35,195 nucleotides of DNA from Lachnospiraceae bacterium (GTDB lineage: Bacteria; Bacillota; Clostridia; Lachnospirales; Lachnospiraceae), in NCBI GenBank assembly GCA_021199235.1, contig JAJQIL010000030.1, forward strand, positions 1 to 35,195. The letters are read 5' to 3'. A program made the position numbers and the translations under genes. Under the pieces are notes generated by a model. It was not told where the DNA came from, ran no database searches, and saw only the letters and a program-made list of their open reading frames with translations. Within the stretch, counting starts at the first letter, position 1, and each line of letters opens with the position of its first letter. Positions 54-24,762 of the stretch are shown here, in pieces.

Positions 54-1484
54 GTGAATTACAAACCAGAAACTAAATTTGTCAGGAGTGAGCGGGGTGG
101 TCATGTACACTACGAGGGAAGCCGGGGAAAAGCGGATTACAATGAGTGTTACAAGCCATATTTTGAGGAAATCTCATATGCAGTAGGCGATAATGGAAGA
201 GTTTCCGGAATCAGGAAGAATGGTTTAAAGTATAAAGGCTATGTGATCAGCACCGGTAAAATGAATGAAAAGAAGGCTTTTTATGTCATACCGGAAATTG
301 ACGAAGACCATGAAGTGAGCGTTTCAGATGAACAGATAAAAGAAGCTGTGAGAGCGTTTCAGATTGATTACAACCGCAGAAAGAACGGGCTGAAGGATAA
401 AAAGGGGAAGTTTATTGAATTTTTCGATCTGCCGCATGATGGTGAAACACGGCCGGTGTTCTATATCGAGCTGGGCGGCAGATTATACTTTGGTTATACG
501 CCCCGCCTGCGGCTGATGTTTGAACATACTATACTGGATGGTTTGCATCAGGAAGAAGAAATCACAGATTTCTCGAAAAACATGTTTGGTTATTCCCGAC
601 AGAATGGGGATTCTCATAAATCCAGACTGTTTTTTACAGACGCAGTCATAACAAATCAGGCTACTGTACTTCAGCCAAAGAATCTGATTCTGGCGGAACC
701 AAAACCGACCAGTTATCTGGAATATGTGTGCCAGAATGATGGAAAACCGGTAAAGACATACAATGATAAAGATTTCCGTCTGCGCGGAACAAAGCAATAC
801 TGGCTCCAGAATACGGTCAACGACGGTATAGCTTCTGATAAGGAAAATGTGAAGTCCACCATAAAACCATTAAAGGAAGGATGTACATTTGAAGGAAAGA
901 CTCGCTTTCAGAATCTGACTGCTTTGGAACTTGGGCTTCTCATCTGGAGTGTGCGACTTGAAAAGGACTCTCAGATGAATGTGGGGAAAGCAAAGGCTTA
1001 TGGATACGGCCGGATAAAGGTAAATAAAACAGACTTATATTTGCAGAACCAGCAATCCGCCTATATTCCGGGATTGGAAGGGCTCTCGGATGTTCAGATG
1101 GTTAAACTTTCGGAAGAGGAAAGAGATACATTTATAAATGCGTATAAAGTATTTCTTGCTGACTGGCTGAAGGGGGAAGAGCATAGTGCCTCGTCCTGGA
1201 CGAGCTGCCATGCGGCAGTGTTTGCCGAGGAAGATCAAAAATGGGCGCAAAAAGTGCTGTTGCAAAATCCGAGCCTTGGTGACTTTTTCTATATGAAGAA
1301 ACGTGTTGCCTCCGGCCAGATGGTACAATATATGTCTCTTGAGAAAAAGCCAGGCTCCCAGAATTTTGGGATATTTAAACAAAAGAACAATCCGCTTCCA
1401 ACGGTATTTGATTATCGTCAGAATGACAGTAACAGGAAAAAACAATTCCTGAAAGGGGAACAGCAAAGTGGCACAGACGTTTGA
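54..1484 (+). CDS. TIGR03986-type CRISPR-associated RAMP protein, probably N-terminally incomplete
   Basis: A RAMP-superfamily subunit, expected to belong to a type III effector complex that holds the crRNA. Seen in the 476 residues: an opening block with ECYKPYFEEISY and the GYVISTGKMNEKKAFYVIP stretch (62-80), an sRLFFtDA-type block (190-197), LRGTKQYW (243-250), and a C-terminal glycine-rich loop GKAKAYGYGR (311-320). TIGR03986 proteins are usually well above 600 residues and begin with a block carrying an IPGSS-type loop, which is absent here. The GTG start abuts the TGA of the preceding frame and has only a weak upstream purine run, so either translation is coupled or the gene is split. 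It overlaps cas6 by 17 bases, so the two are co-transcribed. The family call is from motif recall; the exact subtype cannot be set without cas10. Confidence 0.8.
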   Translation: MNYKPETKFVRSERGGHVHYEGSRGKADYNECYKPYFEEISYAVGDNGRVSGIRKNGLKYKGYVISTGKMNEKKAFYVIPEIDEDHEVSVSDEQIKEAVRAFQIDYNRRKNGLKDKKGKFIEFFDLPHDGETRPVFYIELGGRLYFGYTPRLRLMFEHTILDGLHQEEEITDFSKNMFGYSRQNGDSHKSRLFFTDAVITNQATVLQPKNLILAEPKPTSYLEYVCQNDGKPVKTYNDKDFRLRGTKQYWLQNTVNDGIASDKENVKSTIKPLKEGCTFEGKTRFQNLTALELGLLIWSVRLEKDSQMNVGKAKAYGYGRIKVNKTDLYLQNQQSAYIPGLEGLSDVQMVKLSEEERDTFINAYKVFLADWLKGEEHSASSWTSCHAAVFAEEDQKWAQKVLLQNPSLGDFFYMKKRVASGQMVQYMSLEKKPGSQNFGIFKQKNNPLPTVFDYRQNDSNRKKQFLKGEQQSGTDV

Positions 1485-2391
1485 CATTCCATATATCAGA
1501 CTTCATTTTTCTCTGGAAATGCTCGAAGATACCATACTGCCGTCGACCAAGGCTTCTGCCTTGCGCGGCGGTATGGGAGAAATGCTGCTTCGCCAGAACT
1601 GCGTCCGGGACAGGAAATGCGACAGCTGCTCTTTTCAAAAGGACTGTGTGGTCTGGGATACGTTATATTCCCGCATGGAGATCCGACCAGGCTATGTGAC
1701 GGGAAAGGAGAGCATCGGATATCTGGTTGAATGCAGTGACAGGACAACACATTTCAGTGCCGGAAGCCACCTGAATTTCCAGCTTACGTTGTTTGGACGG
1801 AGCATTCCATTTTTCAACAGTTATATGCAGGCATTTTTGTATCTGGGAATGTCCGGTCTTGGAAAATACCATTCCAGGTTCCGGATATCGGAAGTGAAGA
1901 ATTCTCAGGGACAGCGGCTGGTTTATGGAAATGAAGTGAATATGCAGAATTACCGTATCTTGTCGGTTTCAGATTATGTGCGTGAAAGAAAAGAAAAGCT
2001 GTCGGCCGAAGACGGCCGGTACGTGCTTGTGTTTCTTTCTCCGCTGAATATGAAATTTCAGGGAAAGGAACTGACTGATTTTTCAGGAGAAGCCGTGACA
2101 AAAGGGGCTGTTCGGCGCATTCAGATGCTGAATTATTATCTGGGACGGGAAATGGCTGCGCCCCGGATAGAGGAATATCCGGTTCTTGGAAGCTCTCATG
2201 CAAAAAAAGAAGATATTCACCGCTATTCCAGCACACAGGAGTCCAAAATGCAGATTTCCGGAATTACCGGCAGAGCGGTAATGGAATCTGTGCCGGATGA
2301 ATGTCTCGAATATCTTCTTGCCGGAGAACTGACGCATATCGGGAAAAATACAAGCTTCGGGTTTGGAAAGTATATTATCAATAAAGAATGA
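1468..2391 (+). CDS. cas6: Cas6 pre-crRNA processing endoribonuclease
   Basis: Cas6 cuts the CRISPR transcript inside each repeat and leaves an 8-nt 5' handle, here expected to be AUUGACAC. The protein has 307 residues, typical of the family. An N-terminal cysteine cluster (C45, C51, C54, C60, with CDSCSFQKDC between 51 and 60) is characteristic of the Cas6 clade found with type III systems. The C-terminus carries the glycine-rich RAMP loop IGKNTSFGFGKYII. The start is a GTG preceded by AAAGGGGAA at good spacing; it lies inside the end of the RAMP gene, which suggests translational coupling. It is followed 9 bases later by the first possible start of the CARF-HEPN gene. A catalytic histidine cannot be fixed by eye. 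Confidence 0.93.
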   Translation: MAQTFDIPYIRLHFSLEMLEDTILPSTKASALRGGMGEMLLRQNCVRDRKCDSCSFQKDCVVWDTLYSRMEIRPGYVTGKESIGYLVECSDRTTHFSAGSHLNFQLTLFGRSIPFFNSYMQAFLYLGMSGLGKYHSRFRISEVKNSQGQRLVYGNEVNMQNYRILSVSDYVRERKEKLSAEDGRYVLVFLSPLNMKFQGKELTDFSGEAVTKGAVRRIQMLNYYLGREMAAPRIEEYPVLGSSHAKKEDIHRYSSTQESKMQISGITGRAVMESVPDECLEYLLAGELTHIGKNTSFGFGKYIINKE

Positions 2392-2448
2392 CACACATAA
2401 ATGAAAGCAGGCATTGCCTGCTGCCAGCTGCGAAAGAAGGGCAAATAT

Positions 2449-4605
2449 ATGGATTCTGCAATGGAAAATGTTTTAATCCTGACACTGGGAACAGGATTAA
2501 ACATTGATAAGGATATTTCCAAAGAACTGACGCAACAGAACGGTCTGACTGAAGAAGAAAAAAGGAAAAGAATGATGGAGATATTCTCTTCGGATCAGTT
2601 CTGCTATAGAAAAGCAATTTACTGTACACCCGAAGCAGCCGGAGAAAGGCTGGAAATAGAGTCGGAATTTGTTGCCAAACCGCTGGTTCTTCTGGAAAAA
2701 CCGAAACAGATCTTTATAATAGGCACGGTAAAATCCTCATGGTCGAGCTTTTACAATAAGTTCGCCGGAAACAGGGATTTTGAACATTTTTATACATTGT
2801 TTGAAATCGAGACTGCCAATGGGAAAGATACAGGAAATGAGCGCCTGTGTGAGATAACAGCCATTATTGAAAAGATATACAAGAATGATAAGGTGCTGCA
2901 GTCTCTGTATTCTGCTGATGAACCGCCAGTGGAACTTCATATTCTCCTGACTAAATATGGGCTGAACGAAGCGGAACTGAAAGATAATTATAAGATCATC
3001 AGTTCTATGGAAAAATATTTTCAGAAGGACAGGCAATACCAGATTTCATTTGATATTACGCATTCGTTTCGTTCGATACCTATTTATGATCTTGTCATTT
3101 TAAATTACTTGAAGCACATTACGCAGTACCATGTTGAGATTTCTCATGTGTACTATGGAAATGTGGAAGTGAGCGGAGAAGCGGGGAAAGCATATATCGT
3201 CGATCTCAAAGATCTGATAAGCGTATTGGAACTGACCAATGGCGTTGGCGAGTTTCGCGATACCGGAAATGCTGTCGCCCTGCTTCATGAACTTTCAGAT
3301 TCAGAATCGGCTCTGGGTACAGCTTTAGAAAGGTTTGACTGGGCTACCCAGATCAATGATTACCAGGCAATCATAAACTCTGTGGAAGGTTTGCTGCGGC
3401 TGGTGAATACACCTGAAACAAAAAGCCGCTATACGGATCTAAAAGATATGCTTGCCAGGGTTCTGGAAGAACAGTTTATTTCTGAAGAAAAACTGCTTGA
3501 ACTGAAAGAGAGTTCGACTTATCCGGATCATGTTGGGGAACTTCAGCTATGTATCTGCAAGTGGTTCCGGAATCAGAACCGATATGGGCTGGCCATAGCT
3601 ACTGCATTGGAAACATTGAGAAGCTTTCTTGTGCCGTTTTATCTGAGAAGGAATGGCGGCCTGAATGATGAAATCACATTGACCGACTGCCAGAACGAGA
3701 ATAAGAGAAAGAGTGCAGAAGATGTGCTTACTCATTTGTCCGGCTTTATTAAAAGCGGTGAAATGAAAGCGGACTCAGAAGAGCTTAAGCTTTTGTGTAC
3801 TGTGGCGGACCTGAGAGATCAGGTCAGACCGATAAGAAATCGTTTTGCACATAATTTAATGTCCGCTCAGGACAAAACGACCGGGGATGAAAGAATGTCT
3901 GAGCGGAATGAAACGGATGAATATTTAAATGATAAAAAACTGATTGATGAGTTTATATCCGCATTGGATCGTCTTTTTGCTTTACCAAAAGGAAAAATCG
4001 CGAAAGCGTATTATAAAAAGCCGGCTAAAAAAATGACTCGGAAAATAAGCAGCAATAAGGAAATGAGGCTGATCATTTGCAATGCTGACAGTTATGATAA
4101 TAAGTATAAAAAACTTTTAGAATACAGATTCCTGAAAAAAAGCAATAAAAACAGCTTTGATGTTTATGTTTTGCCGGAGCAATTATCGAGGATGATCAGC
4201 AGCAGAACGAAACAGGAAGAAGTTATCCTGGATGCGTTTCTGGTACGGCAATATATAGAGGAGCATTTTGAAACAGAACATTTAACTGTGATCCTGGATG
4301 ACCTCAGGTATCTCCAGTGTGTGTTTTATCCTGCGGTTTTAATGAGACAGAATATTGATGTTAATTTGCTTCAATACAATCAAAAGAATAAGCAAAAGAC
4401 TCTTCAGATTATATCATCGTCATACGAGCTGGAATTGGAATATGACGAGATGGAGCAGAGAGCTGCTGAAGAATATGTGAGTGCTGAATGGACTCATGAG
4501 ACATGGGAACTTTTACATAAAAGTTATGCATCAGATTCTGAATGGTCAATAAAAATAAAGGAAGGAGAGCACATAAGATATAGTCCTCTTCCAATGAACC
4601 ATTAA
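2449..4605 (+). CDS. Csx1/Csx2-type (TIGR02221-like) CARF-HEPN ribonuclease with a C-terminal extension
   Basis: A predicted ancillary RNase of type III immunity: the N-terminal CARF domain senses cyclic oligoadenylate made by Cas10, and the HEPN domain then cuts RNA. Seen: an N-terminal strand ENVLILTLGTG, the TIGR02221 hallmark DITHSFRSIP (about 202-211), and a HEPN motif RNRFAH (R463-H468, RX4H spacing). Residues about 536-718 form an extra segment starting RLIICNADSYD with a VILDDLRYLQ strand; I do not recognise it. The ATG at 2449 is chosen because AAGAAGG lies 8 bases upstream; an in-frame ATG at 2401 would add 16 residues. It is the last gene of the left cas operon, followed by a hairpin element and array 1. 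Confidence 0.85.
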   Translation: MDSAMENVLILTLGTGLNIDKDISKELTQQNGLTEEEKRKRMMEIFSSDQFCYRKAIYCTPEAAGERLEIESEFVAKPLVLLEKPKQIFIIGTVKSSWSSFYNKFAGNRDFEHFYTLFEIETANGKDTGNERLCEITAIIEKIYKNDKVLQSLYSADEPPVELHILLTKYGLNEAELKDNYKIISSMEKYFQKDRQYQISFDITHSFRSIPIYDLVILNYLKHITQYHVEISHVYYGNVEVSGEAGKAYIVDLKDLISVLELTNGVGEFRDTGNAVALLHELSDSESALGTALERFDWATQINDYQAIINSVEGLLRLVNTPETKSRYTDLKDMLARVLEEQFISEEKLLELKESSTYPDHVGELQLCICKWFRNQNRYGLAIATALETLRSFLVPFYLRRNGGLNDEITLTDCQNENKRKSAEDVLTHLSGFIKSGEMKADSEELKLLCTVADLRDQVRPIRNRFAHNLMSAQDKTTGDERMSERNETDEYLNDKKLIDEFISALDRLFALPKGKIAKAYYKKPAKKMTRKISSNKEMRLIICNADSYDNKYKKLLEYRFLKKSNKNSFDVYVLPEQLSRMISSRTKQEEVILDAFLVRQYIEEHFETEHLTVILDDLRYLQCVFYPAVLMRQNIDVNLLQYNQKNKQKTLQIISSSYELELEYDEMEQRAAEEYVSAEWTHETWELLHKSYASDSEWSIKIKEGEHIRYSPLPMNH

Positions 4606-4663: not shown

Positions 4664-4675
4664 CACATAATTGAT

Positions 4676-4848
4676 TCTGAGTTTAATATATTTTGTTGAC
4701 ATTGGTGGATGAAAAGTTTATTATGATCTCAGAAATAGCGTGAACCCCAAAAAATGACCTAAAAATCCTCATTATCAGAATATTCTGATAATTATTTGCG
4801 GAAATGACCTTCGGAAGCCGCATAAATAAAGGCTTTTTCGAGGGGTGC
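4676..4848 (+). promoter_or_regulatory. CRISPR leader of array 1
   Basis: About 170 bases directly left of the first repeat are nearly identical to 9305-9476, left of array 2. Shared parts are the sigma-A promoter, an A-rich block, a 22 bp perfect palindrome at 4771-4792 (half site ATTATCAGAAT and its mirror), and CTTCGGAAGCCGCATAAATA close to the first repeat. This fixes the array orientation as rightward and marks the site where new spacers should enter. Confidence 0.9.
4696..4724 (+). promoter_or_regulatory. Sigma-A promoter in leader 1
   Basis: TTGACA (4696-4701), 17 bases, TATTAT (4719-4724). Transcription should start near 4731 and read into array 1 as pre-crRNA. The 29 bases are almost identical to the leader 2 and nrdD promoters. 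Confidence 0.85.
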
Positions 4849-6331
4849 GTAGAAATGAGGAAGCCCGCTACGAGGGCATTGACACAAGTTTCGCTAAAAC
4901 AACACAAAGCACGTCGTCTGGTAGAAATGAGGAAGCCCGCTACGAGGGCATTGACACATTTTCGTTGTATCAATTAAACTATCCGTCATATCTATGTAGA
5001 AATGAGGAAGCCCGCTACGAGGGCATTGACACCGCGTTACCAATCGCATCGAACATACTAGACATATTGTAGAAATGAGGAAGCCCGCTACGAGGGCATT
5101 GACACCTTCCTGCTCATGTGTCATTGCGTGACGGCTAAACGTAGAAATGAGGAAGCCCGCTACGAGGGCATTGACACCTCTATTCTTCAAGAACGAGCCG
5201 AATACCTTGGTCACGGTAGAAATGAGGAAGCCCGCTACGAGGGCATTGACACACAGCGAGTAGTATAGCCACCGTATATCAGCTCACCGTAGAAATGAGG
5301 AAGCCCGCTACGAGGGCATTGACACTTAACGGCCATGATGACCGGTCTAACTCCAGCAGCTGCGTAGAAATGAGGAAGCCCGCTACGAGGGCATTGACAC
5401 AGGTATATGGGTTACCTGCATATTCCCCTATACCGTGTAGAAATGAGGAAGCCCGCTACGAGGGCATTGACACATTTCCTCGGCCACCGATACCATGCTT
5501 GTATATGTAGAAATGAGGAAGCCCGCTACGAGGGCATTGACACATTCATCTGGTAGACGAAAATTTCCGTTATGCGTGTAGAAATGAGGAAGCCCGCTGT
5601 GAGGGCATTGACACCCCTTGCTCGTTGACACGCTCGTTTCCTTTGGCGTCGTAGAAATGAGGAAGCCCGCTGTGAGGGCATTGACACTTACCTGCGATGA
5701 AGCTACCTTTTTCCGGCTTGTTGTAGAAATGAGGAAGCCCACTGTGAGGGCATTGACACAAATCAGAAAGACTTGTTTCGTTCTTTCTAATTTCTCCGTA
5801 GAAATGAGGAAGCCCGCTGTGAGGGCATTGACACAAGTTCTGAATCTTTGGAATGAACACCTCATTCATGTAGAAATGAGGAAGCCTGCTGTGAGGGTAT
5901 TGACACAATTCGATTGCCTTGTCAAAATCAGTCAGCGCCCAGATGCGTAGAAATGAGGAAGCCCGCTGTGAGGGCATTGACACGATGAGAGATACTTTGT
6001 ACAGTAGTATTTCCCTCTTGTAGAAATGAGGAAGCCCGCTATGAGGGCATTGACACTGCTTATTCATGACTCTATCGCGGGTTGCGAACGGAGTAGAAAT
6101 GAGGAAGCCCGCTACGAGGGCATTGACACGGTTTTCTTTGCCTTGCTCTTTGCCTTGACCGTCGTTGGTAGAAATGAGGAAGCCCGCTACGAGGGCATTG
6201 ACACCGTTTCCTCTCCTGGAATTCAATTTCAGACTTCACCGTAGAAATGAGGAAGCCCGCTGTGAGGGCATTGACACACCCAGAGTATACCTACAAACTT
6301 TTTAGATCTGTATGTAGAAATGAGGAAGCCA
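4849..6331 (+). CRISPR. CRISPR array 1: 20 full 37-nt repeats, 20 spacers, one degenerate terminal repeat
   Basis: The repeat begins GTAGAAATGAGGAAGCCCGC and ends GAGGGCATTGACAC; spacers are 33-40 bases. Repeat starts run 4849, 4921, 4996, 5069 ... 6168, 6241, with a truncated copy at 6313 that diverges after GAGGAAGCC. GCCC and GGGC can pair, with a variable loop. The loop reads TACGA in repeats 1-10, 18 and 19, TGTGA in repeats 11-16 and 20, and TATGA in repeat 17; repeats 13 and 15 have further changes. Leader-proximal repeats are uniform and distal ones are mixed, as expected if new repeats are added at the left. The ATTGACAC end matches the 5' handle style of type III crRNAs. Confidence 0.99.
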
Positions 6332-8672: not shown

Positions 8673-8687
8673 AAGGAGGATGGCAGT

Positions 8688-9212: not shown

Positions 9213-9304
9213 ATCTGTTTTTGATTTAACATTTTCTGCACCATTCTGAAGAAGTATATTGATGCGTTTTTCGAAAAGGATGAAACAAATGAAGAAGTAT
9301 TTTT

Positions 9305-9476
9305 CTGAGTTCAATATATTTTGTTGACATTGCTGGATGAAAAGCTTATTATGAACTCAGAAATGGCGCGAGCCCCAAAAAATGATCTAAAAGTCCTCAT
9401 TATCAGAATATTCTGATAATTATTTGCAAAAACGACCTTCGGAAGCCGCATAAATAAAGGCTTTATCGAGGGTACC
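9305..9476 (+). promoter_or_regulatory. CRISPR leader of array 2
   Basis: Nearly identical to leader 1 from CTGAGTTCAATATATTTTG to the first repeat, including the 22 bp palindrome at 9399-9420. Scattered substitutions (for example GGTGG to GCTGG and TTTCTTT variants near the repeat) show that the copies have begun to diverge outside the promoter and palindrome. Confidence 0.9.
9324..9352 (+). promoter_or_regulatory. Sigma-A promoter in leader 2
   Basis: TTGACA (9324-9329), 17 bases, TATTAT (9347-9352). It should produce the array 2 pre-crRNA from about 9359. Confidence 0.85.
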
Positions 9477-12225
9477 GTAGAAATGAGGAAGCCCGCTATG
9501 AGGGCATTGACACGAGTGTTGCACATCTTCTGATCTTTCGGCTTTCTCGTAGAAATGAGGAAGCCCGCTATGAGGGCATTGACACTAACCGGATGAGTGT
9601 TTTCATACGTAGCCACATGAAGTAGAAATGAGGAAGCCCGCTATGAGGGCATTGACACCGTCGAAGAAGTCCTGACTTGTGCAGGTGGGTTCCTGGTAGA
9701 AATGAGGAAGCCCGCTATGAGGGCATTGACACCGTACTTCTTTGATGTCTCCCACTCATCCCAGCTGTGTAGAAATGAGGAAGCCCGCTATGAGGGCATT
9801 GACACAGTTTTAGTTTCCTCCTTATATTTTTATAATGGCGTAGAAATGAGGAAGCCCGCTATGAGGGCATTGACACCTCCTGGGCTATCATTTTGAGCTG
9901 TAACGCCCCATGGGTAGAAATGAGGAAGCCCGCTATGAGGGCATTGACACAAACCTTTCTTTTTCATTACTGCTCACCCCCATTCAGTAGAAATGAGGAA
10001 GCCCGCTATGAGGGCATTGACACGTTACACATGTTAAATCCCAGGGATTCTCACTCGTAGTAGAAATGAGGAAGCCCGCTATGAGGGCATTGACACATCG
10101 TCCGAATCGATACTCTTCGTCACCTCGTTCACAGTAGAAATGAGGAAGCCCGCTATGAGGGCATTGACACGTATTTCCAGCAGCAAGGACTGTTTCATCA
10201 TCAGCAGTAGAAATGAGGAAGCCCGCTATGAGGGCATTGACACAAAACACGACAAGCCAATGACAGTCGCAAGTGTTCGTAGAAATGAGGAAGCCCGCTA
10301 TGAGGGCATTGACACATTGATTGCTGCAATGCTTTCGGCTGTTTCCGATTCGGTAGAAATGAGGAAGCCCGCTATGAGGGCATTGACACAGAAATCTTGT
10401 ATAATAAGATCTCCCTCTTTCTTCGTAGAAATGAGGAAGCCCGCTATGAGGGCATTGACACATATGAAGAGTAGGTACTCGCTCTTCCAGCCGAGGTAGA
10501 AATGAGGAAGCCCGCTATGAGGGCATTGACACGCTCCGGAGACATCTCGTGTCTCGAGAACCACATAAGTAGAAATGAGGAAGCCCGCTATGAGGGCATT
10601 GACACCTCCAAGCCCACTTATCCCGTGGCCTTTGTTATCGTAGAAATGAGGAAGCCCGCTATGAGGGCATTGACACAAGGCCGTCATAATACCGCAACAA
10701 TACTCGGTTGTCGTAGAAATGAGGAAGCCCGCTATGAGGGCATTGACACTCATATAATATGTACTCATGGTACTCCTTCCTCCTGGGTAGAAATGAGGAA
10801 GCCCGCTATGAGGGCATTGACACGTCTGCGGCCTTAGCCTTTTCTACCCTACAGTACTCCATGTAGAAATGAGGAAGCCCGCTATGAGGGCATTGACACT
10901 CTCATCCGTTCATTGTTTTGTTCGACTTCTCTTTTTCGTAGAAATGAGGAAGCCCGCTATGAGGGCATTGACACTATTTTACCGCTCCCCACCTTTCTTT
11001 ACAGAATATCCGTAGAAATGAGGAAGCCCGCTATGAGGGCATTGACACCCTCCATCTTTCCGGCTATAAATGAACCTTTTTCCGTAGAAATGAGGAAGCC
11101 CGCTATGAGGGCATTGACACGTGACATCAACCGACGACCGCGGACTTCTTTCGTTGTGTAGAAATGAGGAAGCCCGCTATGAGGGCATTGACACATGTCT
11201 CATTCATTATGGTACTGTGACTCCCTCATCCCGTAGAAATGAGGAAGCCCGCTATGAGGGCATTGACACACTATGGCCTTTTCGTACTTACCGAGGCCAC
11301 AAGGTAGAAATGAGGAAGCCCGCTATGAGGGCATTGACACTTTCGTTGTTCGAGTATGCCCAAATCCTCAGAACATCGTAGAAATGAGGAAGCCCGCTAT
11401 GAGGGCATTGACACACTATGGCCTTTTCATATTTTCCAAGACCACTCGTTTGTAGAAATGAGGAAGCCCGCTATGAGGGCATTGACACATTTCTACTAAA
11501 GTATTCTTAGATTCTGTCAGCTTGTCGTAGAAATGAGGAAGCCCGCTATGAGGGCATTGACACATTCGTTTCTCCGACGAGCAAGCCATCAAGGAAGATT
11601 TTGTAGAAATGAGGAAGCCCGCTATGAGGGCATTGACACATTGCCGTAATGCTCTCCATCGCCTTCTGATCTGCCGGTAGAAATGAGGAAGCCCGCTATG
11701 AGGGCATTGACACCCTCCGATACCAATTGCCGTACCTCCAATGAGACCGGGTAGAAATGAGGAAGCCCGCTATGAGGGCATTGACACATAGTTGCTCCCT
11801 GTACGTTCTGATTCATTTTCTTTGTAGAAATGAGGAAGCCCGCTATGAGGGCATTGACACTACTCTATGATCGACTCATCTCTATAATCGATCATGTTAG
11901 TAGAAATGAGGAAGCCCGCTATGAGGGCATTGACACCGTTTTTTGTCATATTAAAACTCATATCTAATTCTGTAGAAATGAGGAAGCCCGCTATGAGGGC
12001 ATTGACACGATTAATTGGGGCTACTATTGCTATAATATCAAGTAGAAATGAGGAAGCCCGCTATGAGGGCATTGACACCCTCCGGACTCCATGAAGATAT
12101 ATGTAGAAGCGCCATCGTAGAAATGAGGAAGCCCGCTATGAGGGCATTGACACACTCGGTATCCGTTCGACCGTAGCATTTTGTTAAATGGTAGAAATGA
12201 GGAAGCCCGCTATGAGGGCATTGAC
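9477..12225 (+). CRISPR. CRISPR array 2: 38 repeats of 37 nt, 37 spacers
   Basis: Repeat starts run 9477, 9549, 9622, 9696 ... 12042, 12117, 12191. All repeats carry the TATGA loop variant and look uniform, in contrast to array 1. The last repeat is cut two bases early (TTGAC then CACC), 33 bases before the DUF6431 gene. Spacers are 33-39 bases. Spacers 25 and 27 (11270-11303 and 11415-11451) share their first 14 bases and differ afterwards at every third base. Spacer 22 (11049-11083) encodes on its complement the same EKGSFIAGK peptide as array 1 spacer 12. Spacers 7 and 18 contain a Shine-Dalgarno and ATG on the complement. Confidence 0.99.
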
Positions 12226-12257
12226 CACCAAATACTTGCAACACAATAGATAACGCG

Positions 12258-12931: not shown

Positions 12932-14545
12932 ATGGCGGACGATCAAAAACGAGAAGCGCTTTCAACACCGGAGGAGATTCAAAAACTGGCGGAAGACCAG
13001 AGGCTGGAGAAGCGGACGGAAGTCTGGATGGGGATGGAACGGAAGACAAGCAGGCAGCGGGAAAAGGCGGAGAAATATTATGAGAACAATCTGATGCAGC
13101 TTATCATTGAGCATTACAGGGAGAAAAACGTAGATATGGTATTTGAGGAAGTCGACTACCTGATTCTCTCTGTCGGTACATCATATGAGCCGCTTCTTTT
13201 AAATATTTCCCTGATGAAGCCGAAGAGAATTCTGTTCCTTTATACGGAGGACTCTGAGAGTATTATTAATAAGGTTGTGAATTTCCTGCACCTGCAGGTG
13301 ACGGAGTATGAAAAGAGTAAGGTGGATCCGACGGATTCTCTGTCTGTTTATCAGAAAATCAAGGAAGCTTATGTGGCATGGGATCGTCCGGCGCGGGTCT
13401 ATATAGATTTTACCGGTGGAACGAAGACAATGTCCGCGGCTGCGGCGCTGGCAGGGTCATTGATCAATGTTCAGCTGGTCTATGTCGGTACGAACGAGTA
13501 TATGCCCTTTTTCCGTAAGCCGAAACCTGGGAGCGAGGAGCTGTTTTATATCGACAATCCGATTGAGGTGTTTGGAGACTTTGAACTGGAAAAAGTGTTC
13601 GCGTTGATTGAACGATTTAATTACGCGGGCGCTGCGGAAAAGCTGAAGGACTTAAAAGATAATCTGCCGGATCCGCTGAACCGCCAGCAGATCAATTTTG
13701 TGTATCTTCTTGTTCGGGTGTATGAATGCTGGGATGCGTTGGAATTTCAGCAGGCAAAAGAGATTATGGAGGAGCTGCTGAAAGAACTGAAACGGGATTA
13801 TCGGGTTCACAAGAAAATTCTGATGATGGATTTTCAGCCGATTCTGAATAATCAGTACAGGATTCTTTGTCAGCTGGATAAGATTCCGCCGCTGCTTCGG
13901 GAGAAAAAGCCGCAGGAAATTCTGAAAAACAAATCGGTGATCGTCGCACTGATGCATACGATGTACAGCAACGGGATACGGCGTGAGGAACAGGAAAAAT
14001 ATGATATGGGGGCACTGCTGTTTTATCGGCTTCTGGAAATGATCGTTCAGAAAAGACTGATGAATTATGGCCTTTATGTCTCAAGACCGGTGTACGATGA
14101 ACTGGATTTTTCACTTGCGAAGGGATATGAGAACCTTTCAAGAGAGGAACAGTTTGGGAAACTGAAATCAGAAAACGCGAATTTACGTCAGCGACTATTC
14201 CGTGGGAAACCGCTGGATTATCTGCCGAACCCGGTCGCGCTGTTGGATGGATGCCTTCTGCTGGCTTCGCTTGGTGATGCGGTGATTGTTGAGAACGGAA
14301 AAGATCCTCTGCCGCAGCTGCAGAAGATCCGTGCAATGGTATCCTTGAGAAACAACAGTATTTTTGCTCATGGACTGGGACCGGTGCAGCGGGAGGATTA
14401 TTTTAAATTCCGCAATTTTGTAACGGAACTCTTTCAGCATTTTTGTGAACTGGAGAAGGTGAACTTCGCGGTATACGAGCAGGCCTGTGCGTTTTTGAAC
14501 CCGATCAACTCGCAGTATTATCAGATTATGGGGGAACCCGGATGA
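12932..14545 (+). CDS. TIGR02710-type CARF-HEPN protein (Csm6/Csx1-like RNase)
   Basis: A second predicted cyclic-oligoadenylate-activated RNase. After a charged helical N-terminus of about 70 residues comes the CARF-like Rossmann part: VDYLILSVGTSYEPLL (74-89), KPKRILFLYTE (97-106), and the TIGR02710 signature IDFTGGTKTMSAAAALAG (158-175). The C-terminal helical part carries the HEPN motif RNNSIFAH (R473-H480, RX6H). Its 537 residues are slightly long because of the N-terminal extension. AAAGGAG precedes the ATG at about 9 bases. Its stop overlaps the cas1 start (ATGA), so it is part of the adaptation operon. It differs from the left-hand CARF-HEPN gene in family and in motif spacing. Confidence 0.87.
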   Translation: MADDQKREALSTPEEIQKLAEDQRLEKRTEVWMGMERKTSRQREKAEKYYENNLMQLIIEHYREKNVDMVFEEVDYLILSVGTSYEPLLLNISLMKPKRILFLYTEDSESIINKVVNFLHLQVTEYEKSKVDPTDSLSVYQKIKEAYVAWDRPARVYIDFTGGTKTMSAAAALAGSLINVQLVYVGTNEYMPFFRKPKPGSEELFYIDNPIEVFGDFELEKVFALIERFNYAGAAEKLKDLKDNLPDPLNRQQINFVYLLVRVYECWDALEFQQAKEIMEELLKELKRDYRVHKKILMMDFQPILNNQYRILCQLDKIPPLLREKKPQEILKNKSVIVALMHTMYSNGIRREEQEKYDMGALLFYRLLEMIVQKRLMNYGLYVSRPVYDELDFSLAKGYENLSREEQFGKLKSENANLRQRLFRGKPLDYLPNPVALLDGCLLLASLGDAVIVENGKDPLPQLQKIRAMVSLRNNSIFAHGLGPVQREDYFKFRNFVTELFQHFCELEKVNFAVYEQACAFLNPINSQYYQIMGEPG

Positions 14546-15549
14546 GTGTACTTTATGTGAAAGAGCAGGGCTCCTATGTCAAAAAGAGTGGAGAGACGGT
14601 CGAGGTGATGTCCCGACAGAATGAGCGGTTGCTGACGTTCCCGGTAGCAAATCTGGATGGGCTATCTGTATTTGGAAATGTGCAGCTTACCACGCAGGCA
14701 TTGGCTTTTCTCCTGGAAAATGGTGTCGATGTAAGCCTGTTTTCCAGAAATGGCACCCTGATCGGTCAGGTACTGGCGGATGCGTCGAAAAATATTTTTC
14801 TCCGGCTGGCACAGTATGACGCCTATCAGGATTTTGACATCCGAATGGGGCTGGCCCGTGTGATTATCTGTAATAAGATAGAGAACCAGTGTCAATTGAT
14901 CCAGCATTACCGTTATAAAGATGGATTTTCACCTCAACAGGAACTGGGGAAGATGGAGAAGCTGAAAAGAAAGCTGGAGACCTGCATGACCTCGAATGAA
15001 ATACTGGGGGTAGAGGGAATGTGCAGTAATATTTATTTTTCCTGCTTTGCGCACATGGTCTCCTGCAATTTTGAGTTTAGCGGAAGAAACCGCAGACCGC
15101 CGAAGGATCCGATCAATGTGATCTTAAGTTTGGGATATACATTTTTGACAAGAGAAGTATGTACGGCTCTGGAAGCAGAGTCTTTTGAAGTGTATCTGGG
15201 TTTTTTACACGGCGTTAGATACGGACGAAAGTCCCTGGCACTGGATATGGTGGAAGAATTCCGTCAGCCGGTGGTTGACCGCTTTGTGATCCGGAGCTTT
15301 AACAAACGGATTTTAAACGAATTCGATTTTGAAGTGGAAGAAGATAAGGTGACACTTGCAGAAGAAGGATTCTCTAAGTTTTGCAGGGAATTCGAAAACT
15401 GGATGACCGGAAGAAAATCTGTACAGCCCGTCAATTATCGGAAACTGATTCGAAGCCAGGCGGCCGGGCTGAAGAAAGCTTTGCGGGATAAAACGGATTA
15501 TACGCCGTATCACTGGGAGGGCGGCCGTGATTTATGTGATCAGTTATGA
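14542..15549 (+). CDS. cas1: Cas1 integrase
   Basis: The catalytic subunit that joins prespacers to the leader-proximal repeat. At 335 residues it is full length. The N-terminal beta domain (MSVLYVKEQGSYVKKSG) is followed by the helical catalytic domain with E158 (ILGVEGMCSNIYF), H223 (GFLHGVRYGRKSLALDM) and the acidic pair of DMVEEFRQPVVDRFV (about 235-249). Translation is coupled to the preceding gene by ATGA, and its 3' end overlaps cas2 by 23 bases. Unlike the best-known RT-Cas1 proteins it is not fused to a reverse transcriptase; the RT is a separate gene downstream. Confidence 0.97.
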   Translation: MSVLYVKEQGSYVKKSGETVEVMSRQNERLLTFPVANLDGLSVFGNVQLTTQALAFLLENGVDVSLFSRNGTLIGQVLADASKNIFLRLAQYDAYQDFDIRMGLARVIICNKIENQCQLIQHYRYKDGFSPQQELGKMEKLKRKLETCMTSNEILGVEGMCSNIYFSCFAHMVSCNFEFSGRNRRPPKDPINVILSLGYTFLTREVCTALEAESFEVYLGFLHGVRYGRKSLALDMVEEFRQPVVDRFVIRSFNKRILNEFDFEVEEDKVTLAEEGFSKFCREFENWMTGRKSVQPVNYRKLIRSQAAGLKKALRDKTDYTPYHWEGGRDLCDQL

Positions 15550-15814
15550 CATCGAATCAGATCGGATGCGGACAAAACTTGCGAAGCTTCTGGAGGGATA
15601 TGGCGTGCGGATTCAATATTCTGTATTTGAATGCTCCCTCACAGAGCAGCGTTTTAAAAAGCTGTACAGGGAAATCCTGAAGCTGACGACAGAGGACTGC
15701 CCGGGAAGTGTTCGCTTTTATGCTATCTGCCGGAACTGTGAGAACCGGATTGTCACGATTGGAAAACCCATGAATGAACTGGCTGAGCACCGGAAAGAAA
15801 TCATTATTGTGTGA
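15527..15814 (+). CDS. cas2: Cas2
   Basis: The structural partner of Cas1, 95 residues, ferredoxin-like fold: MIYVISYDIESDRMRTKLAK with the conserved Asp at position 8, YGVRIQYSVFECSLTEQRF, and SVRFYAICRNCENRIVTIG. The start is a GTG within the end of cas1, giving a 23-base overlap. It is followed 25 bases later by the RT-primase gene. Confidence 0.97.
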   Translation: MIYVISYDIESDRMRTKLAKLLEGYGVRIQYSVFECSLTEQRFKKLYREILKLTTEDCPGSVRFYAICRNCENRIVTIGKPMNELAEHRKEIIIV

Positions 15815-15839: not shown

Positions 15840-18773
15840 ATGGGACTCTATACGAAGATCATAGATCTGCAGAAGCTGCGGCTTGCCTGGAAGCAGGTGT
15901 ATAAAAATAAACCAAAAGAAGGAATAGATGAAGTCACCTGCGATGCTTTTGAAGAGGACAAAGATAATCAGCTGAAGCTGTTGGCGGCGCAGCTTCAGGA
16001 TCACAGCTATGAATGTCAGCCGGTGCGCCTCTGTCCGCTGTATAAAGGGGAAAAGGTTCGGTATATCAGCCTGTATTGTATGCGGGATAAGGTCGTACAG
16101 AATTCGCTGGCCAATGAATTATCCGGAATCTACGAAGGCCAGTTTCCGCCATGCACCTATGCCTACCGCAGCGGTAAATCAGCGCTGGAAGCGGGTAATG
16201 ATGTAGTCAGACATATAAAAAGCACAGAAAATGAATATGTCCTGCGAACGGACATCCATTCTTTTTTCGACTGTATTGTTCATTCAAAGCTGTTTTCCAT
16301 TCTTCGCGGCAGGATCAGGGAGGCGGATGTGCTGGAATTGATCCGCAATATCATATCTGTCCCATCTATGGAACGCGATGGTACCCTCAACAGAAAACAG
16401 GTGGGAATTTATCAGGGAGCTTCGATTTCTCCCGTGCTGTCAAATATCTATCTGATGCGGCTTGATGAGAAAATCATGCAGGAGGTCTCGTTTTATATTC
16501 GATATTCGGACGACCTTCTCCTTTTCTTCCAATCCTTTGATCAGGCGGCAGCCTACAGAGACAAATTGAAGCTGTATCTGGAAGAACTGGGCCTTGAACT
16601 GAATATGGAAAAGACGCAGCTGGTATCGGTAGCGGATGGATTTGATTTTCTTGGGTACCATTTCGACCAGACAGGAATGTCTGTGCCGGATAAGGCCAGA
16701 GAGCAGCTTGGTGAACGTCTGGAAAACATCTGGCTGGATTCTACACTTACGACATTTGAAGGTCGGATGCAGAAAGCTTCGGAAATAGTGACGGGATGGG
16801 AACAGTATTTTTCAACAGAAAAGTCGGCGGGCGGAATACTGGAATTTGCACTGCGTATCTATCGGAAGAAGAAGCCGGATCAGGCGGATCTGGAACAGTT
16901 TGTCCGGATGCGGGTCGGGCTTGAGAATCCTTTCCGGGATGTAGCAGAGTACCTGATCGCATTCTGGAATGAAAATGGACGCCGGGATATGGCTCTTCGG
17001 GAATACGAGTCGTTTTATGGCCTGCCGGAGATATGGGAGGATAAGCGTACCTTTGACAACATGGAAAATATAACGGATTCGGGACGGGAATCAGATGATG
17101 ACAGAGCAGCGAGCGAGAAAACCGAGGCTGGAAAGGCAGCCCTGCTCCGTCAACTCCTTAAGCTTTACGAGCAATATTTTGCCGCCGAATCCCATGAAAT
17201 CCGTGTGGAACTTATTCAGATTTATACAGACCTGAAAAAATATCGCAACGCTGCGTTCCTTACGGAGAATGAGCCAAAAGTGAATGGATCACAAATACAA
17301 TTGCGGAGAAGAAATACTTTGAGTCCTGTAGCGGGAACTTCAGAGGGGATGGGACAATATGGTGATACAGACGCAGTGTCTTTGAATTCGAAAGAACGGA
17401 ACCGCTATATAGAATTGTTTGTGGGACGCGAAGATCTTTATGCGTTGAATGTTATATCAGAAAACAACCGCAGAATCTGTGAGGATGTGCCGGAACCACT
17501 GCTGCCTGATGTTGTACAGTCGCACCTGGACGGCATAAATACGGTCAGCACATATATTCAGCGAAGCAACGCAACGGTAAAATACCTGGTGCTGGATCTT
17601 GATATTTCGAAAGCAGTTTTGCTTGGAAAAACGGAAGAAGTGGCTGCAGAATATAAGAAGAAGTGTTTTGAACTGGCTGTCGCCTGTATAAAGGAACTGC
17701 GTCATCTGGGCATCAGCGGATATCTGGAGGACAGCGGAAACCGTGGCTATCATGTGTGGGTGTTCTTTGACGGATGGATTCCTGCCAGGTATGTAAATCT
17801 GCTCACTGATATCATTGCGGTGAAGATGACTCCGGTCTTCCGCGACACAGGAATTCAGATTGAATATTTTCCAAATAAAACAAAAGTCAGAAATGGGAAG
17901 AAGGGACAGTGTATCAAACTGCCGTGGGGCATTCACCCAAAGTCCGGACGGCGCGGCTGCTTCCTGATGGAAACAGGTGAACCCTGCCAGCCACAGTCAT
18001 CCATTCTGGATGATATCTCTGCGACATCTCTCCATCTGGTAAAAAGAATTATTTCCGCAAATCAGGCGCAGACAACTGAGAACCCCTTGGGGCAGAACAT
18101 AGAGGTGGACAAAGATCTGTCTGAATTCGGAGGATTGCCTGACACGGTACGTGTGGTACTCGAAAACTGTACACTGATGCGTTACCTCTGTCAGAAAGCG
18201 CGGAAAACCCGCTATCTGACACACTTTGAGCGTCTCAGCATCCTGTATGTGTTTGGACATTTGGGCGAAGAAGGCCAGGAATTTGTGCACAAGGTCATGT
18301 CGTTTACTTTGAACTATTCTGAACATGTGACGCAGAAATTTATTACTCGCTGCCCGGAGAAACCAATCAGCTGTATCAAACTTCGGGATCAATATAAGCA
18401 GATTACCGCGGAAATCGGCTGCGCCTGCAGCTTCAGAAGAACCAAAAACTGTTACCCATCCCCGGTGCTGCACGCCTTAAAAAAAGCAGAAGAGAACACA
18501 GCGGTGACCATGCCGCTTTCCAGAACAGTATCGGTGGAACGGCAGGACGTCATGAAGAATGAGATCAATGTGACCGCTCACGTTCAGGAAATTGCGGAAA
18601 AACTGATTGAAATTCGGAAACAACGGAGAAATCTTGACAAGACTGCACGTAAATATGAGCAGGAATTAACAACACTGTTTGACGATAATCATACGGACAG
18701 CATGGAAATCAAAATGGGTCTTCTGGTACGAAGAAAAATCAATGATAAGGTGGAGTGGAGCATCGAGCTGTAA
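15840..18773 (+). CDS. Reverse transcriptase - AEP primase-polymerase fusion (RT-CAPP)
   Basis: A 977-residue protein with two polymerase modules. Residues 1-290 are a group II intron-like RT: LRTDIHSFFDCIVHSKLF (135-152; D138, D144), GIYQGASISPVLSNIYL (189-205), the active site YSDD (222-225) and FDFLGYHF (268-275). A helical and poorly conserved linker (about 300-520) follows. Residues about 520-740 are an archaeo-eukaryotic primase domain: YLVLDLDIS (582-590; D586, D588), SGNRGYHVWVFF (632-643; H638), and a late basic block with GQCIKLPWGIHP (689-700). Residues about 770-900 carry cysteines in the pattern of a PriL-like Fe-S region (RCPEKPISC, GCACSF, NCYPSPVLHA). A GGAGGAGG-rich ribosome binding site precedes the ATG. 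Directly after cas2, it is expected to convert RNA prespacers into DNA. CRISPR-associated primases, including RT fusions, have been described before. Confidence 0.93.
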   Translation: MGLYTKIIDLQKLRLAWKQVYKNKPKEGIDEVTCDAFEEDKDNQLKLLAAQLQDHSYECQPVRLCPLYKGEKVRYISLYCMRDKVVQNSLANELSGIYEGQFPPCTYAYRSGKSALEAGNDVVRHIKSTENEYVLRTDIHSFFDCIVHSKLFSILRGRIREADVLELIRNIISVPSMERDGTLNRKQVGIYQGASISPVLSNIYLMRLDEKIMQEVSFYIRYSDDLLLFFQSFDQAAAYRDKLKLYLEELGLELNMEKTQLVSVADGFDFLGYHFDQTGMSVPDKAREQLGERLENIWLDSTLTTFEGRMQKASEIVTGWEQYFSTEKSAGGILEFALRIYRKKKPDQADLEQFVRMRVGLENPFRDVAEYLIAFWNENGRRDMALREYESFYGLPEIWEDKRTFDNMENITDSGRESDDDRAASEKTEAGKAALLRQLLKLYEQYFAAESHEIRVELIQIYTDLKKYRNAAFLTENEPKVNGSQIQLRRRNTLSPVAGTSEGMGQYGDTDAVSLNSKERNRYIELFVGREDLYALNVISENNRRICEDVPEPLLPDVVQSHLDGINTVSTYIQRSNATVKYLVLDLDISKAVLLGKTEEVAAEYKKKCFELAVACIKELRHLGISGYLEDSGNRGYHVWVFFDGWIPARYVNLLTDIIAVKMTPVFRDTGIQIEYFPNKTKVRNGKKGQCIKLPWGIHPKSGRRGCFLMETGEPCQPQSSILDDISATSLHLVKRIISANQAQTTENPLGQNIEVDKDLSEFGGLPDTVRVVLENCTLMRYLCQKARKTRYLTHFERLSILYVFGHLGEEGQEFVHKVMSFTLNYSEHVTQKFITRCPEKPISCIKLRDQYKQITAEIGCACSFRRTKNCYPSPVLHALKKAEENTAVTMPLSRTVSVERQDVMKNEINVTAHVQEIAEKLIEIRKQRRNLDKTARKYEQELTTLFDDNHTDSMEIKMGLLVRRKINDKVEWSIEL

Positions 18774-18906: not shown

Positions 18907-18948
18907 GTTGAAGAACTGTCTCACGAGATTCCGACAGTATGAAACAGG

Positions 18949-18977
18949 TTGACATTGAAGTATGAAAAGCTTATTAT
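18949..18977 (+). promoter_or_regulatory. Sigma-A promoter of nrdD, near-identical to the CRISPR leader promoters
   Basis: TTGACA (18949-18954), 17 bases, TATTAT (18972-18977). Of the 29 bases, 26 equal the leader 2 promoter, including the non-consensus spacer part ATGAAAAGCT. TCAGAAA follows shortly after the -10 box in all three. Confidence 0.8.
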
Positions 18978-19033: not shown

Positions 19034-21205
19034 ATGGAAAGACGGATTATGAAAATTACTTTTGAATTAATAAAGCGTGATGGAGAAACAGTTTATTTCA
19101 GTAACAGATCGTTATGGATAAAAGCCCTGATAAGGAAAGCGGCGGATAAGGTTCTGATTCCGATTGATGATGAGGAAATAGAAGAGATAAACAGTGCTTT
19201 TTTTCAGGAACTGGTTTCGCTGAGTACATCACTTGGCCGTACCAGATTTGAGAACGAGGAATGGCGCGAATGTATAAAGAAGTCGATGGCCGCATATCCG
19301 GAGATCTGTAATGCATTTCTTTTTGCGCATAAAGAGGAAAACGCGGATTTGTATGAACAGATCTGTAAACAGATGAAGGAGATTACTCTGGATGGGGACA
19401 GAAGTAATGGCAGCGTAGACAGCAGCCTGACTTCGAGCAAACGTGCTCTGACCGTGGATGCCGTAGAAAAAATTACATACAGTAATTATCATCTGACTCC
19501 AGAGCAAAGGGAAGCCTGCAATGACGGGTATATATACATACATGATATGGGGCACAGAAGAGATGCTATCAATTGTTGCCTGTTTGACATGGAAAATGTG
19601 CTGACAAATGGTTTTGAGATGGGGGAGATGTGGTATGACGAGCCGGCCTCATTGAGCGAAGCGTTTGACGTGATTGCCAGTGTCTCCATTAATGCTGCCG
19701 CACAGATTTATGGAGGATTTACTATTCCCCAGATTGATGAACTGCTGTCAAAATATGCGAAGAAGAGTTTTGACTTATACGTCTCTGAATATTCTGAAAC
19801 AGGGATTGAAAAACAGCAGGCAGCAGCTTTGGCTGATAAAAAAATCGAAAAAGATTTTGAAAAAGGCTTCAGCGCGTTAGAGGCTAAATTTAATTCACTG
19901 ATCTCACCGAGAGGCGATTATCCATTTATTACAATATCTTTTGGCATTGGAAGAGACAAATACTCTCAAATGGCAACGAGAATGGCTTTGAAGGTAAGAA
20001 AAGAAGGCCATGGAAAGGATGGATTTAAGAGACCGGTCCTTTTTCCAAAATTAGTATTTTTATATGATAAAAATCTCCATGCAAAAGGAATGGAACTATA
20101 TCATCTTTTTCAGGATGCCGTTGACTGCTCCAGCAAAGTTATGTATCCGGAATACCTGAGCCTGACCGGAGAGCGAGGGATTGTATCGGAAGTATATAAG
20201 AAATATGGGAAAGTGATCAGCCCTATGTGTTGCAGAGCTTTCCTTACCAAATGGTTTGAAAAAGGAGGAGAGGAACCTGCCGATGAAAATGATATGCCGA
20301 TATTTATTGGTAGATTTAATATAGGCGTTGTTTCACTGAATCTTCCGATGATTCTGGCAAAAAGCAGGGAGAATTCCGGGGATTTTTTCAAAACACTTGA
20401 TTATTACCTTGAACTGATAAGACAGATTCATAAGAGCACGTACAGGTTTCTGGCAGAAAAGAAAGCCTATACGAACCCGCTGGCTTTTATGCAGGGCGGT
20501 TTGTATGGCGGCCATCTGGACAGGGATGATAAGATTGAACCATTACTGAAGAGCGCTACTGCTTCTTATGGGGTCACAGCGCTGAATGAATTACAACGTT
20601 TATATAATGGAAAATCAATTGTTGAGGATGGTGCGTTTGCGCTTGAAACTGCACAGTACATCAATCATAAAGTTTCAGAATTTCAGGTACAGGATCATAT
20701 TCAGTATTCTGTATATGGGACACCGGCGGAAAGCTTATGTGGGAAACAGGTCAGGCAATTTAGAGAGAAATATGGGATCATTGAAAATGTGAGTGACAGG
20801 GATTATTTTTCAAATTCATTTCACTGCCACGTTTCAGAAGACATTTCACAGATTGAGAAGCAGGAGTATGAGGCGAGATTCTGGGATTTGTTTAATGGAG
20901 GAAAAATTCAATACGTTCGCATTGATGTGCCATACAATATTCCGGCTTTGGAAACATATATTAAGCACGCTATGGATCTTGGCCTGTATGAGGGAATTAA
21001 CATATCGTTAGCATATTGTGATAACTGTGGTTTCCAATGGAATAATATAAAAAATGACAGGCCTCAGATATGCCCCAGATGTAAAAAGAACGAGATGACT
21101 TTAATTGACAGAATGTGCGGCTATCTGGCATTTACAAGAGTTCATGGTAAAACAAGGCTGAATGAAGCAAAAATGGCGGAAATTAATGACCGCATATGTA
21201 TGTAA
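19034..21205 (+). CDS. nrdD: Anaerobic (class III) ribonucleoside-triphosphate reductase
   Basis: Reduces ribonucleotides to deoxyribonucleotides by a glycyl radical under anoxic conditions. An N-terminal ATP-cone (FELIKRDGETVYFSNRS) is followed by the 10-stranded barrel with INCCLFDMENVL (179-190), GRFNIGVVSLNLPMIL, YSVYGTPAESLCG and DRDYFSNSFH. The C-terminus has the zinc cysteines C662, C665, C680, C683 and the glycyl-radical motif RMCGYL (G696). At 723 residues it is full length. The usual PMGCR motif reads PMCCR (397-401). No gene for the activase NrdG is adjacent. An alternative start at 19049 removes five residues; neither start has a clear ribosome binding site. Its promoter resembles the CRISPR leader promoter, and it follows the RT-primase gene. 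Confidence 0.93.
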   Translation: MERRIMKITFELIKRDGETVYFSNRSLWIKALIRKAADKVLIPIDDEEIEEINSAFFQELVSLSTSLGRTRFENEEWRECIKKSMAAYPEICNAFLFAHKEENADLYEQICKQMKEITLDGDRSNGSVDSSLTSSKRALTVDAVEKITYSNYHLTPEQREACNDGYIYIHDMGHRRDAINCCLFDMENVLTNGFEMGEMWYDEPASLSEAFDVIASVSINAAAQIYGGFTIPQIDELLSKYAKKSFDLYVSEYSETGIEKQQAAALADKKIEKDFEKGFSALEAKFNSLISPRGDYPFITISFGIGRDKYSQMATRMALKVRKEGHGKDGFKRPVLFPKLVFLYDKNLHAKGMELYHLFQDAVDCSSKVMYPEYLSLTGERGIVSEVYKKYGKVISPMCCRAFLTKWFEKGGEEPADENDMPIFIGRFNIGVVSLNLPMILAKSRENSGDFFKTLDYYLELIRQIHKSTYRFLAEKKAYTNPLAFMQGGLYGGHLDRDDKIEPLLKSATASYGVTALNELQRLYNGKSIVEDGAFALETAQYINHKVSEFQVQDHIQYSVYGTPAESLCGKQVRQFREKYGIIENVSDRDYFSNSFHCHVSEDISQIEKQEYEARFWDLFNGGKIQYVRIDVPYNIPALETYIKHAMDLGLYEGINISLAYCDNCGFQWNNIKNDRPQICPRCKKNEMTLIDRMCGYLAFTRVHGKTRLNEAKMAEINDRICM

Positions 21206-21260: not shown

Positions 21261-21290
21261 CGCCCCCGGGATTTCCCGGGGGCGAAATCT
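21261..21290 (+). terminator. GC-rich terminator hairpin after nrdD
   Basis: CGCCCCCGGGA-TT-TCCCGGGGGCG is a perfect 11 bp stem with a 2-base apex. Only AAATCTTT follows, so the U-tract is weak. Confidence 0.65.
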
Positions 21291-21293
21291 TTC

Positions 21294-21470
21294 GTTATGC
21301 TGGTTGGAATCAATTATGCCAGAGAAGCGAAAGGAAAAGACAAAACGGCACTCTTGATACGCCGATGAAGCTGACATGCTTTAGCCGTCCCGGACGGTTT
21401 GGCAAGTCCTTTGCGGCCAAAATGCTGTGCGCGTATTATGATAAAAGCTGTGCGATTATGCACTTGCATT
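21294..21470 (+). pseudogene. Rearranged remnant of an AAA-ATPase-like/PDDEXK_9 gene
   Basis: The stretch first matches the C-terminal end of the gene at 24891 (MLVGINYAREAKGKDK against ILVGINYDKDAKGKDQ) and then, directly after it, the N-terminal part of the same gene family (LDTPMKLTCFSRPGRFGKSF, then AAKMLCAYYDKSC). The order is thus 3' end followed by 5' end, as in the junction of two tandem copies after loss of the middle. The Walker A has a changed residue (RPGRFGKS). After about 21470 the similarity stops, and to 21664 no clear gene is visible. Confidence 0.75.
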
Positions 21471-21664
21471 TTTCGCATCTTATGAAAGGTCAAAATCTCA
21501 GCCTGTCTTCCGTACGCATGGTGAATAGTAACAAAGCATCAGAAGAGCTGCATAAAAATGTTCAAATGCACAAAAAATGGAAATGAATATTGAAATTCTG
21601 GCCATTCAGCGATAGAATAGCATTACTAAAATTTGTGATTGTGCACGGAAATGAGGAATGCAAC

Positions 21665-22918: not shown

Positions 22919-23233
22919 TGCGGTGTTTTATCAGTCTTGAACTGCTATGACGGTTCTGATGAGCTGTTTACCTGTGACTGATGTGGGCAAACCAGTCCGG
23001 TGACTCCCTGTGACGGAAGCGGATTTCGTGCCGGAGAAGACCACTGATGATAACGGACAGGTATTATGATGTGACTTGCCCCCTTGTTTTGTAATCACAG
23101 AGGATCTCGTAGATGTTCGGCTTGAACTTTACGCACAGCATCTTCTGAAAGACTAAGAAGTTCTGCTGTTTCAGAAACGCTGTGCCCCTGTTTTGTCCAG
23201 ACTAAAAAAACAGAATGCCTGAATGCTTACGAT
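22919..23233. other. Intergenic stretch without a recognised gene
   Basis: These 315 bases lie between two convergent ATPase genes. The minus strand holds a 25-codon frame (MLCVKFKPNIYEILCDY and so on) that might be a remnant, but it has no start signal. No terminator with a clear U-tract was seen. Confidence 0.5.
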
Positions 23234-24634: not shown

Positions 24635-24762
24635 AAATCTGCCCCGCCTGAATTTAAATGATAGTTTGTGTGATGCAATATTGTAACGATTCCTGTCGGT
24701 GATGGATAAAGGTACTATATCATCCTGATTTCCAATAGTCAATTATGATTTACTAATTTTCG

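Follow-up and report, generated by a model that had tools for sequence, protein, structure and literature searches.

We identified a reverse transcriptase (RT) fused to a CRISPR-associated primase-polymerase (RT-CAPP) next to cas1 and cas2 in a Lachnospiraceae bacterium, within a 35,195-nucleotide stretch of DNA (the window, meaning the whole stretch analyzed). We estimate a probability of roughly 75% that this protein serves a type III CRISPR-Cas locus as its adaptation polymerase, in which the RT makes prespacers and the primase-polymerase (Prim-Pol) half is still under selection. RT-CAPP belongs to an already known fusion class (CAPP-RT, or CART-CAPP). The new point is the strict conservation of the Prim-Pol catalytic site in the clade sampled, and the puzzle of why Prim-Pol is retained thereby becomes testable by mutants.

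Domain architecture of the fusion protein

The gene and its domains were delimited as follows (window coordinates, strand, and residues of the protein).

15840..18773, +, RT-CAPP (CART-CAPP) gene, 977 aa (NF040561, PADLOC PrimPol)
15840..16859, +, reverse transcriptase fingers, palm, and thumb, residues 1-340 (D138, Y222-S-D224-D225)
16860..17273, +, mainly helical region, residues 341-478 (helices in the structure model)
17274..17381, +, disordered variable loop, residues 479-514 (pLDDT <50 at 480-509; mostly gaps in relatives)
17382..18071, +, Prim-Pol (AEP) domain, residues 515-744 (D586, D588, S632, H638, E675)
18132..18494, +, Cys-rich, possibly PriL-like domain, residues 765-885 (C777, C845, C861, C863, C871)
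18582..18770, +, Gam/Gp157-like C-terminal domain, residues 915-977 (PF22709, 5.6e-21)

Pfam matches (RVT_1 at residues 70-275, 4.3e-29; AEP-TOTE at residues 549-734, 7.4e-25) and the structure model place the RT domain N-terminal to the Prim-Pol domain in one chain, which is the arrangement of the CAPP-RT type. Pfam names of the AEP-TOTE kind come from TOTE conflict systems. The NCBIfam model NF040561 ("CRISPR-associated primase-polymerase type A1") scored 244.9 bits, above its curated cut-off of 200, with a match starting at residue 435, and the PADLOC PrimPol model ("adaptation polymerase") matched the same part of the protein (1.5e-51). An initial annotation, made by inspection of the sequence, had proposed an RT fused to a CRISPR-associated primase-polymerase, and profiles, folds, and NF040561 bear this out; the same NCBIfam entry and the names CAPP-RT and CART-CAPP in the literature agree with its remark that such fusions are already known.

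The fold of the RT half was closest to group II intron RTs in structure comparisons, and the complete active site that had been read from the sequence (YSDD at residues 222-225) is present. In the other half, profile search and structure prediction agree with the earlier assignment of residues 520-740 to an AEP fold, with both catalytic sets present in the protein. Motif I of the Prim-Pol superfamily has been described as hhhDhD/E and motif II as sxH (PMC10345425). RT-CAPP carries both, together with an acidic motif III and the fold itself, and the corresponding elements (LVLDLD, GYH, and E675) each align with the Marinitoga CAPP. The DLD of the primase-type core lies at residues 586-588 as first noted; the GYHVW motif is also there, but at residues 636-640, one residue earlier than the 637-641 originally given.

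The region between the two catalytic halves (residues 300-520) had been described as an unconserved linker, a description that did not hold: most of it is folded, comprising the RT thumb and a helical region, and disorder is confined to approximately residues 480-513. No Pfam match reached its cut-off in the helical region (residues 341-478), which occupies the place of the TPR domain in CAPP-TPR proteins. The latter, from Marinitoga piezophila and Marinitoga sp. 1137, share with RT-CAPP a Prim-Pol domain (aligned over 218 residues, rmsd 1.8), a C-terminal domain with conserved Cys, and a location near cas1-cas2, but have TPR repeats at the N-terminus and no RT. Residues 765-885 resemble the Fe-S domains of primase large subunits (PriL/Pri2) weakly in fold, and their Cys are conserved among relatives; the domain may be PriL-like, with a putative Fe-S cluster. 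A Pri2-like role for the C-terminal domain of CAPPs has been suggested earlier (PMC10345425).

Genomic context in a type III CRISPR locus

RT-CAPP is the last gene of a CARF/HEPN-cas1-cas2 operon, as seen from the other features of the locus.

54..1484, +, cas7-like type III RAMP (TIGR03986; match only from profile position 192-193 on)
1468..2391, +, cas6 (PF10040, 1.1e-11)
2401..4605, +, second CARF-HEPN gene (TIGR02221, Csx1-like)
4675..6277, +, CRISPR array 1 with leader, 20 repeats
9303..12227, +, CRISPR array 2 with leader, 38 repeats of 37 nt
12932..14545, +, CARF-HEPN (Csm6/Csx1-like) gene (PF09670, 9.5e-23; TIGR02710 over cut-off; R-x6-H at residue 473)
14542..15549, +, cas1 (PF01867, 3.5e-87)
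15527..15814, +, cas2 (PF09827, 6.3e-23)
18948..18977, +, 30-nt CRISPR-leader motif copy without an array behind it

The CARF-HEPN gene, cas1, and cas2 overlap one another and precede RT-CAPP, in agreement with the placement in an adaptation module that had been proposed, and proximity to cas1 and cas2 of a type III locus (cas6 and a type III RAMP are present) is likewise found in the CAPP-RT type. The two arrays hold 56 spacers, all different and 33-40 nt long. The locus is type III CRISPR-Cas, perhaps III-D by its TIGR03986 RAMP. Cas10 was not found in the window's own genome assembly with the TIGR02578 and PF22335 profiles, and PF03787 had no match in that genome, although this profile also misses the window's own RAMP and is hence insensitive here. 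Because the contig begins at base 1 of the window, the remainder of the effector operon probably sits on a missing or other contig.

The gene order recurs in relatives. Among eight longer loci examined, four (L001, L003, L050, and L051) contain the complete CARF/HEPN-cas1-cas2-RT-CAPP order, in L004 and L055 the gene after cas1-cas2 is a broken or split RT-CAPP copy (in L004, cas1 is without its N-terminal part and cas2 was judged from its first residues), and L054 ends too early for a gene-order call. In the eighth, L052, cas1-cas2-RT-CAPP is preceded by a CorA-like gene (4988-6499, PADLOC 4.4e-54) where the CARF/HEPN gene stands elsewhere. The effectors differ across loci: Cmr4 and Cmr6 were over their cut-offs in L052, TIGR03986 is common to L050 and the window, and L004 had Cas10-, Csx10-, and Csx7-like matches that were all below cut-offs. 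From these differences we infer that one adaptation module pairs with different type III effectors.

In L052, the signaling partner changes while the adaptation genes stay, with Cmr-type effectors beside them. The broken or split RT-CAPP frames lie at 7824-10636 in L004 and 7906-10756 in L055, where the split separates motifs I and II of the Prim-Pol domain. Errors of assembly, gene decay, or genuine splitting of the gene could each account for these breaks.

Phylogeny of the RT domain

A FastTree phylogeny of RT domains was built from 29 RT-CAPP sequences (hand-picked from 61 representatives), 14 RT-Cas1 sequences, and 18 intron-type RTs. The RT-CAPP RTs formed one clade apart from RT-Cas1 and intron-type RTs (support 0.88, or 0.999 without L007), while neither the RT-Cas1 nor the intron-type RTs formed a single group in the same tree and one intron-type RT (P0188) was placed among RT-Cas1 sequences. 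This topology fits one founding fusion of RT-CAPP, whose deepest member is modestly supported.

The tree also bears on whether the gene is an ordinary group II intron or retron lying by chance in a CRISPR locus. The RT fold would suit that explanation, yet the 18 intron-type RTs fall outside the RT-CAPP clade, relatives repeat both the domain fusion and the order of the operon, and an Rfam scan of the window at gathering scores gave no group II intron RNA; we consider such a chance insertion extremely improbable. RT-Cas1 and Cas6-RT-Cas1 (Marinomonas mediterranea) resemble RT-CAPP in having a group II-type RT that serves spacer acquisition, but their RT is fused to Cas1, whereas the window has cas1 as a separate ORF outside the RT-CAPP chain, a Prim-Pol partner, and an RT of a separate clade. 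The lack of an RT-Cas1 fusion had been given as one reason why this version deserves study; a separate cas1 is the normal arrangement among published CART-CAPPs and does not set this version apart.

Comparison with characterized enzymes

The CAPP-RT type was defined with a Caloramator protein as its example (PMC8211822). CART-CAPPs of Caloramator australicus (CCJ33120) and Geobacillus lituanicus have an N-terminal RT followed by a Prim-Pol and a C-terminal domain, as in the window's protein, and likewise lie near cas1-cas2 in type III loci. The published protein is shorter (713 aa versus 977 here), with its RT Asp pair at 154/155 instead of 224/225. Judged by the construct limits given for it (RT 1-204, PP 322-521), its N-terminus and middle, the parts compared, would be shorter than those of the window's RT-CAPP.

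In the assays described for the Caloramator enzyme, the RT domain alone primed and extended on both RNA and DNA, with priming at a level comparable with that of the full protein, whereas the Prim-Pol domain alone showed neither priming nor extension; a Geobacillus RT mutant was inactive, and Prim-Pol was inactive in both CART-CAPPs tested (PMC10415136). Those authors described the reason for keeping an inactive Prim-Pol as unclear and suggested redundancy and loss of function. In the literature searched, the name CART-CAPP occurred in this one paper, and no follow-up on its Prim-Pol half was among the 15 listed of 1,218 matching papers. That inactivity concerns the published enzymes, and the primase half of the window's protein may still work.

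These results count against the mechanism offered in the initial annotation, whereby the Prim-Pol domain lays a primer on RNA and the RT extends that primer. Such a mechanism would be consistent with two intact active sites and with the primase activity reported for stand-alone CAPPs (PMC8211822). However, it was the RT domain that primed in the Caloramator enzyme, on DNA and RNA, and the Prim-Pol domain alone did not (PMC10415136), and stand-alone CAPPs are described as working best on DNA templates (PMC8211822). Prim-Pol priming of RNA for the RT thus appears to be the less likely direction, and we regard this model as improbable.

Conservation of both active sites

Catalytic positions were compared in an alignment of 170 proteins (P0001-P0168, L005, and L007), including the window's own; as 166 of the 170 were found by similarity to the latter and the rest via two divergent members, the window's clade is oversampled. 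None of the 170 proteins departs from D586, D588, or H638 of the Prim-Pol site, and the position of E675 holds E in 165, D in two, G in two, and a gap in one. At D224 and D225 of the RT, every one of the 156 rows covering this region has D (14 are gapped). Cluster and divergence counts were based on 151 of the 170 rows (length >820, D at 225 and 588). The unfiltered alignment has no row with another residue at 225 or 588, with gaps at 225 only, so that no row was dropped for a changed residue. At a threshold of 70% identity, the 151 near-full-length rows collapse into 61 clusters, and at 50% into 10; the median pairwise identity of the 61 cluster representatives is 47%. By these alignments, the Prim-Pol catalytic site is under selection, with no drift within the clade sampled, and the RT and Prim-Pol sites look equally guarded.

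Mean pairwise identity was 0.438 for Prim-Pol and 0.482 for RT, with the AEP value above the RT value in 251 of 1,830 pairs, which are not independent of one another. The Prim-Pol domain thus diverges slightly faster than the RT, a pattern expected under partial relaxation. This is one of the points in favor of a Prim-Pol domain that has lost catalysis and survives as a relic, retained solely for its shape or for partner binding. The inactivity of Prim-Pol in two tested relatives, in line with the suggestion of those authors (PMC10415136), and the reported binding of MpCAPP to Cas1 through the part before its C-terminal domain (PMC8211822) are others. Nonetheless, a domain kept for shape only need not keep its metal ligands, and here all 170 proteins keep three of the catalytic residues unchanged, while 167 have an acidic residue at the fourth position. 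That D586, D588, and H638 are invariant and E675 nearly so argues against a decaying relic, and we consider the dead-relic explanation rather unlikely.

Proposed function

Our preferred reading is that RT-CAPP acts as the adaptation polymerase of its type III locus. As inferred from relatives, the RT domain would initiate de novo on short pieces of invader RNA or single-stranded DNA, and Cas1-Cas2 would then receive the copy and insert it into the two arrays. The Prim-Pol and C-terminal half probably still acts in some step within this clade, since its structure is complete and selection maintains its catalytic residues. Perhaps it primes or extends the second strand on the freshly made cDNA, a role that we prefer because stand-alone CAPPs work best on DNA templates.

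A more specific version, which we advance tentatively and with low confidence, has two working polymerases in one chain, in which the RT would self-prime cDNA and the Prim-Pol and PriL-like Fe-S domain, as a whole PriS-PriL primase, would prime the second strand. If true, this would yield a double-stranded prespacer for Cas1-Cas2 straight from RNA, and the published Prim-Pol inactivity would be clade specific or due to proteins without a loaded cluster.

Distribution of RT-CAPP

Protein searches at E values up to 1e-3 returned 447 and 482 proteins, with much overlap among the 120 listed for each, and the closest named relatives of RT-CAPP among those listed were mostly Lachnospiraceae. In a contig scan, three of four RT-CAPP loci were labeled as Lachnospiraceae and one as Eubacteriales. 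The NF040561 cut-off was passed in 3 of 299 genomes in the phylum set (own genome included), in 5 of 397 in the family set (own genome included), and in 1 of 391 in the class set, namely the window's own genome alone. A further set yielded 2 of 398 genomes, both already in the phylum set, and the one same-genus genome within the family set had no NF040561 match. The family thus seems sparse and scattered, much like horizontally moved defense genes.

Arrays, leaders, and flanking sequences

The 30-nt leader motif occurs at 4695-4724 and 9323-9352, with a third copy at 18948-18977 between the RT-CAPP gene and nrdD. With as many as three mismatches allowed, the 3.47 Mb genome contains exactly three copies of it (control, 0). 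A CRISPR array stands downstream of the RT-CAPP gene in L001, L003, L004, L051, and L052 (in L055, the array was found on the other side, beyond cas1), and hence the third copy may be what remains of the leader of a third array that was lost, and it perhaps now serves as the nrdD promoter. We also considered nrdD (19034-21205, TIGR02487) as a dNTP-supplying partner and rejected it, as no ORF of at least 700 aa lies downstream of RT-CAPP in L001, L003, L004, L051, or L052.

Two spacers of array 2 (11270-11303 and 11415-11451) are homologous, with five differences over the first 31 nt, at every third base, as if two related phages had each supplied a spacer from one shared protein-coding gene. 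That gene would be coded on the strand opposite to the array strand, and crRNA, if transcribed rightward, would pair with the mRNA. One degenerate pattern covering both spacers had no match in viral contigs.

Between the arrays, the region 6562-8842 has duplicated segments (171 nt at 89%, 48 nt at 92%, and 35 nt at 91%) around small ORFs, one of which (6710-7075) had no Pfam match. A DUF6431 protein (12258-12830, 5e-24) is encoded between array 2 and the CARF-HEPN gene. Behind nrdD, sequence fragments recur at 21272-28555 around AAA-ATPase_like/PDDEXK_9 genes (e.g., 21343-21450 and 24980-25087, at 92%), which suggests a decayed further copy. This region also includes a GA-cis RNA (28013-28092), the sole Rfam match in the window at gathering scores.
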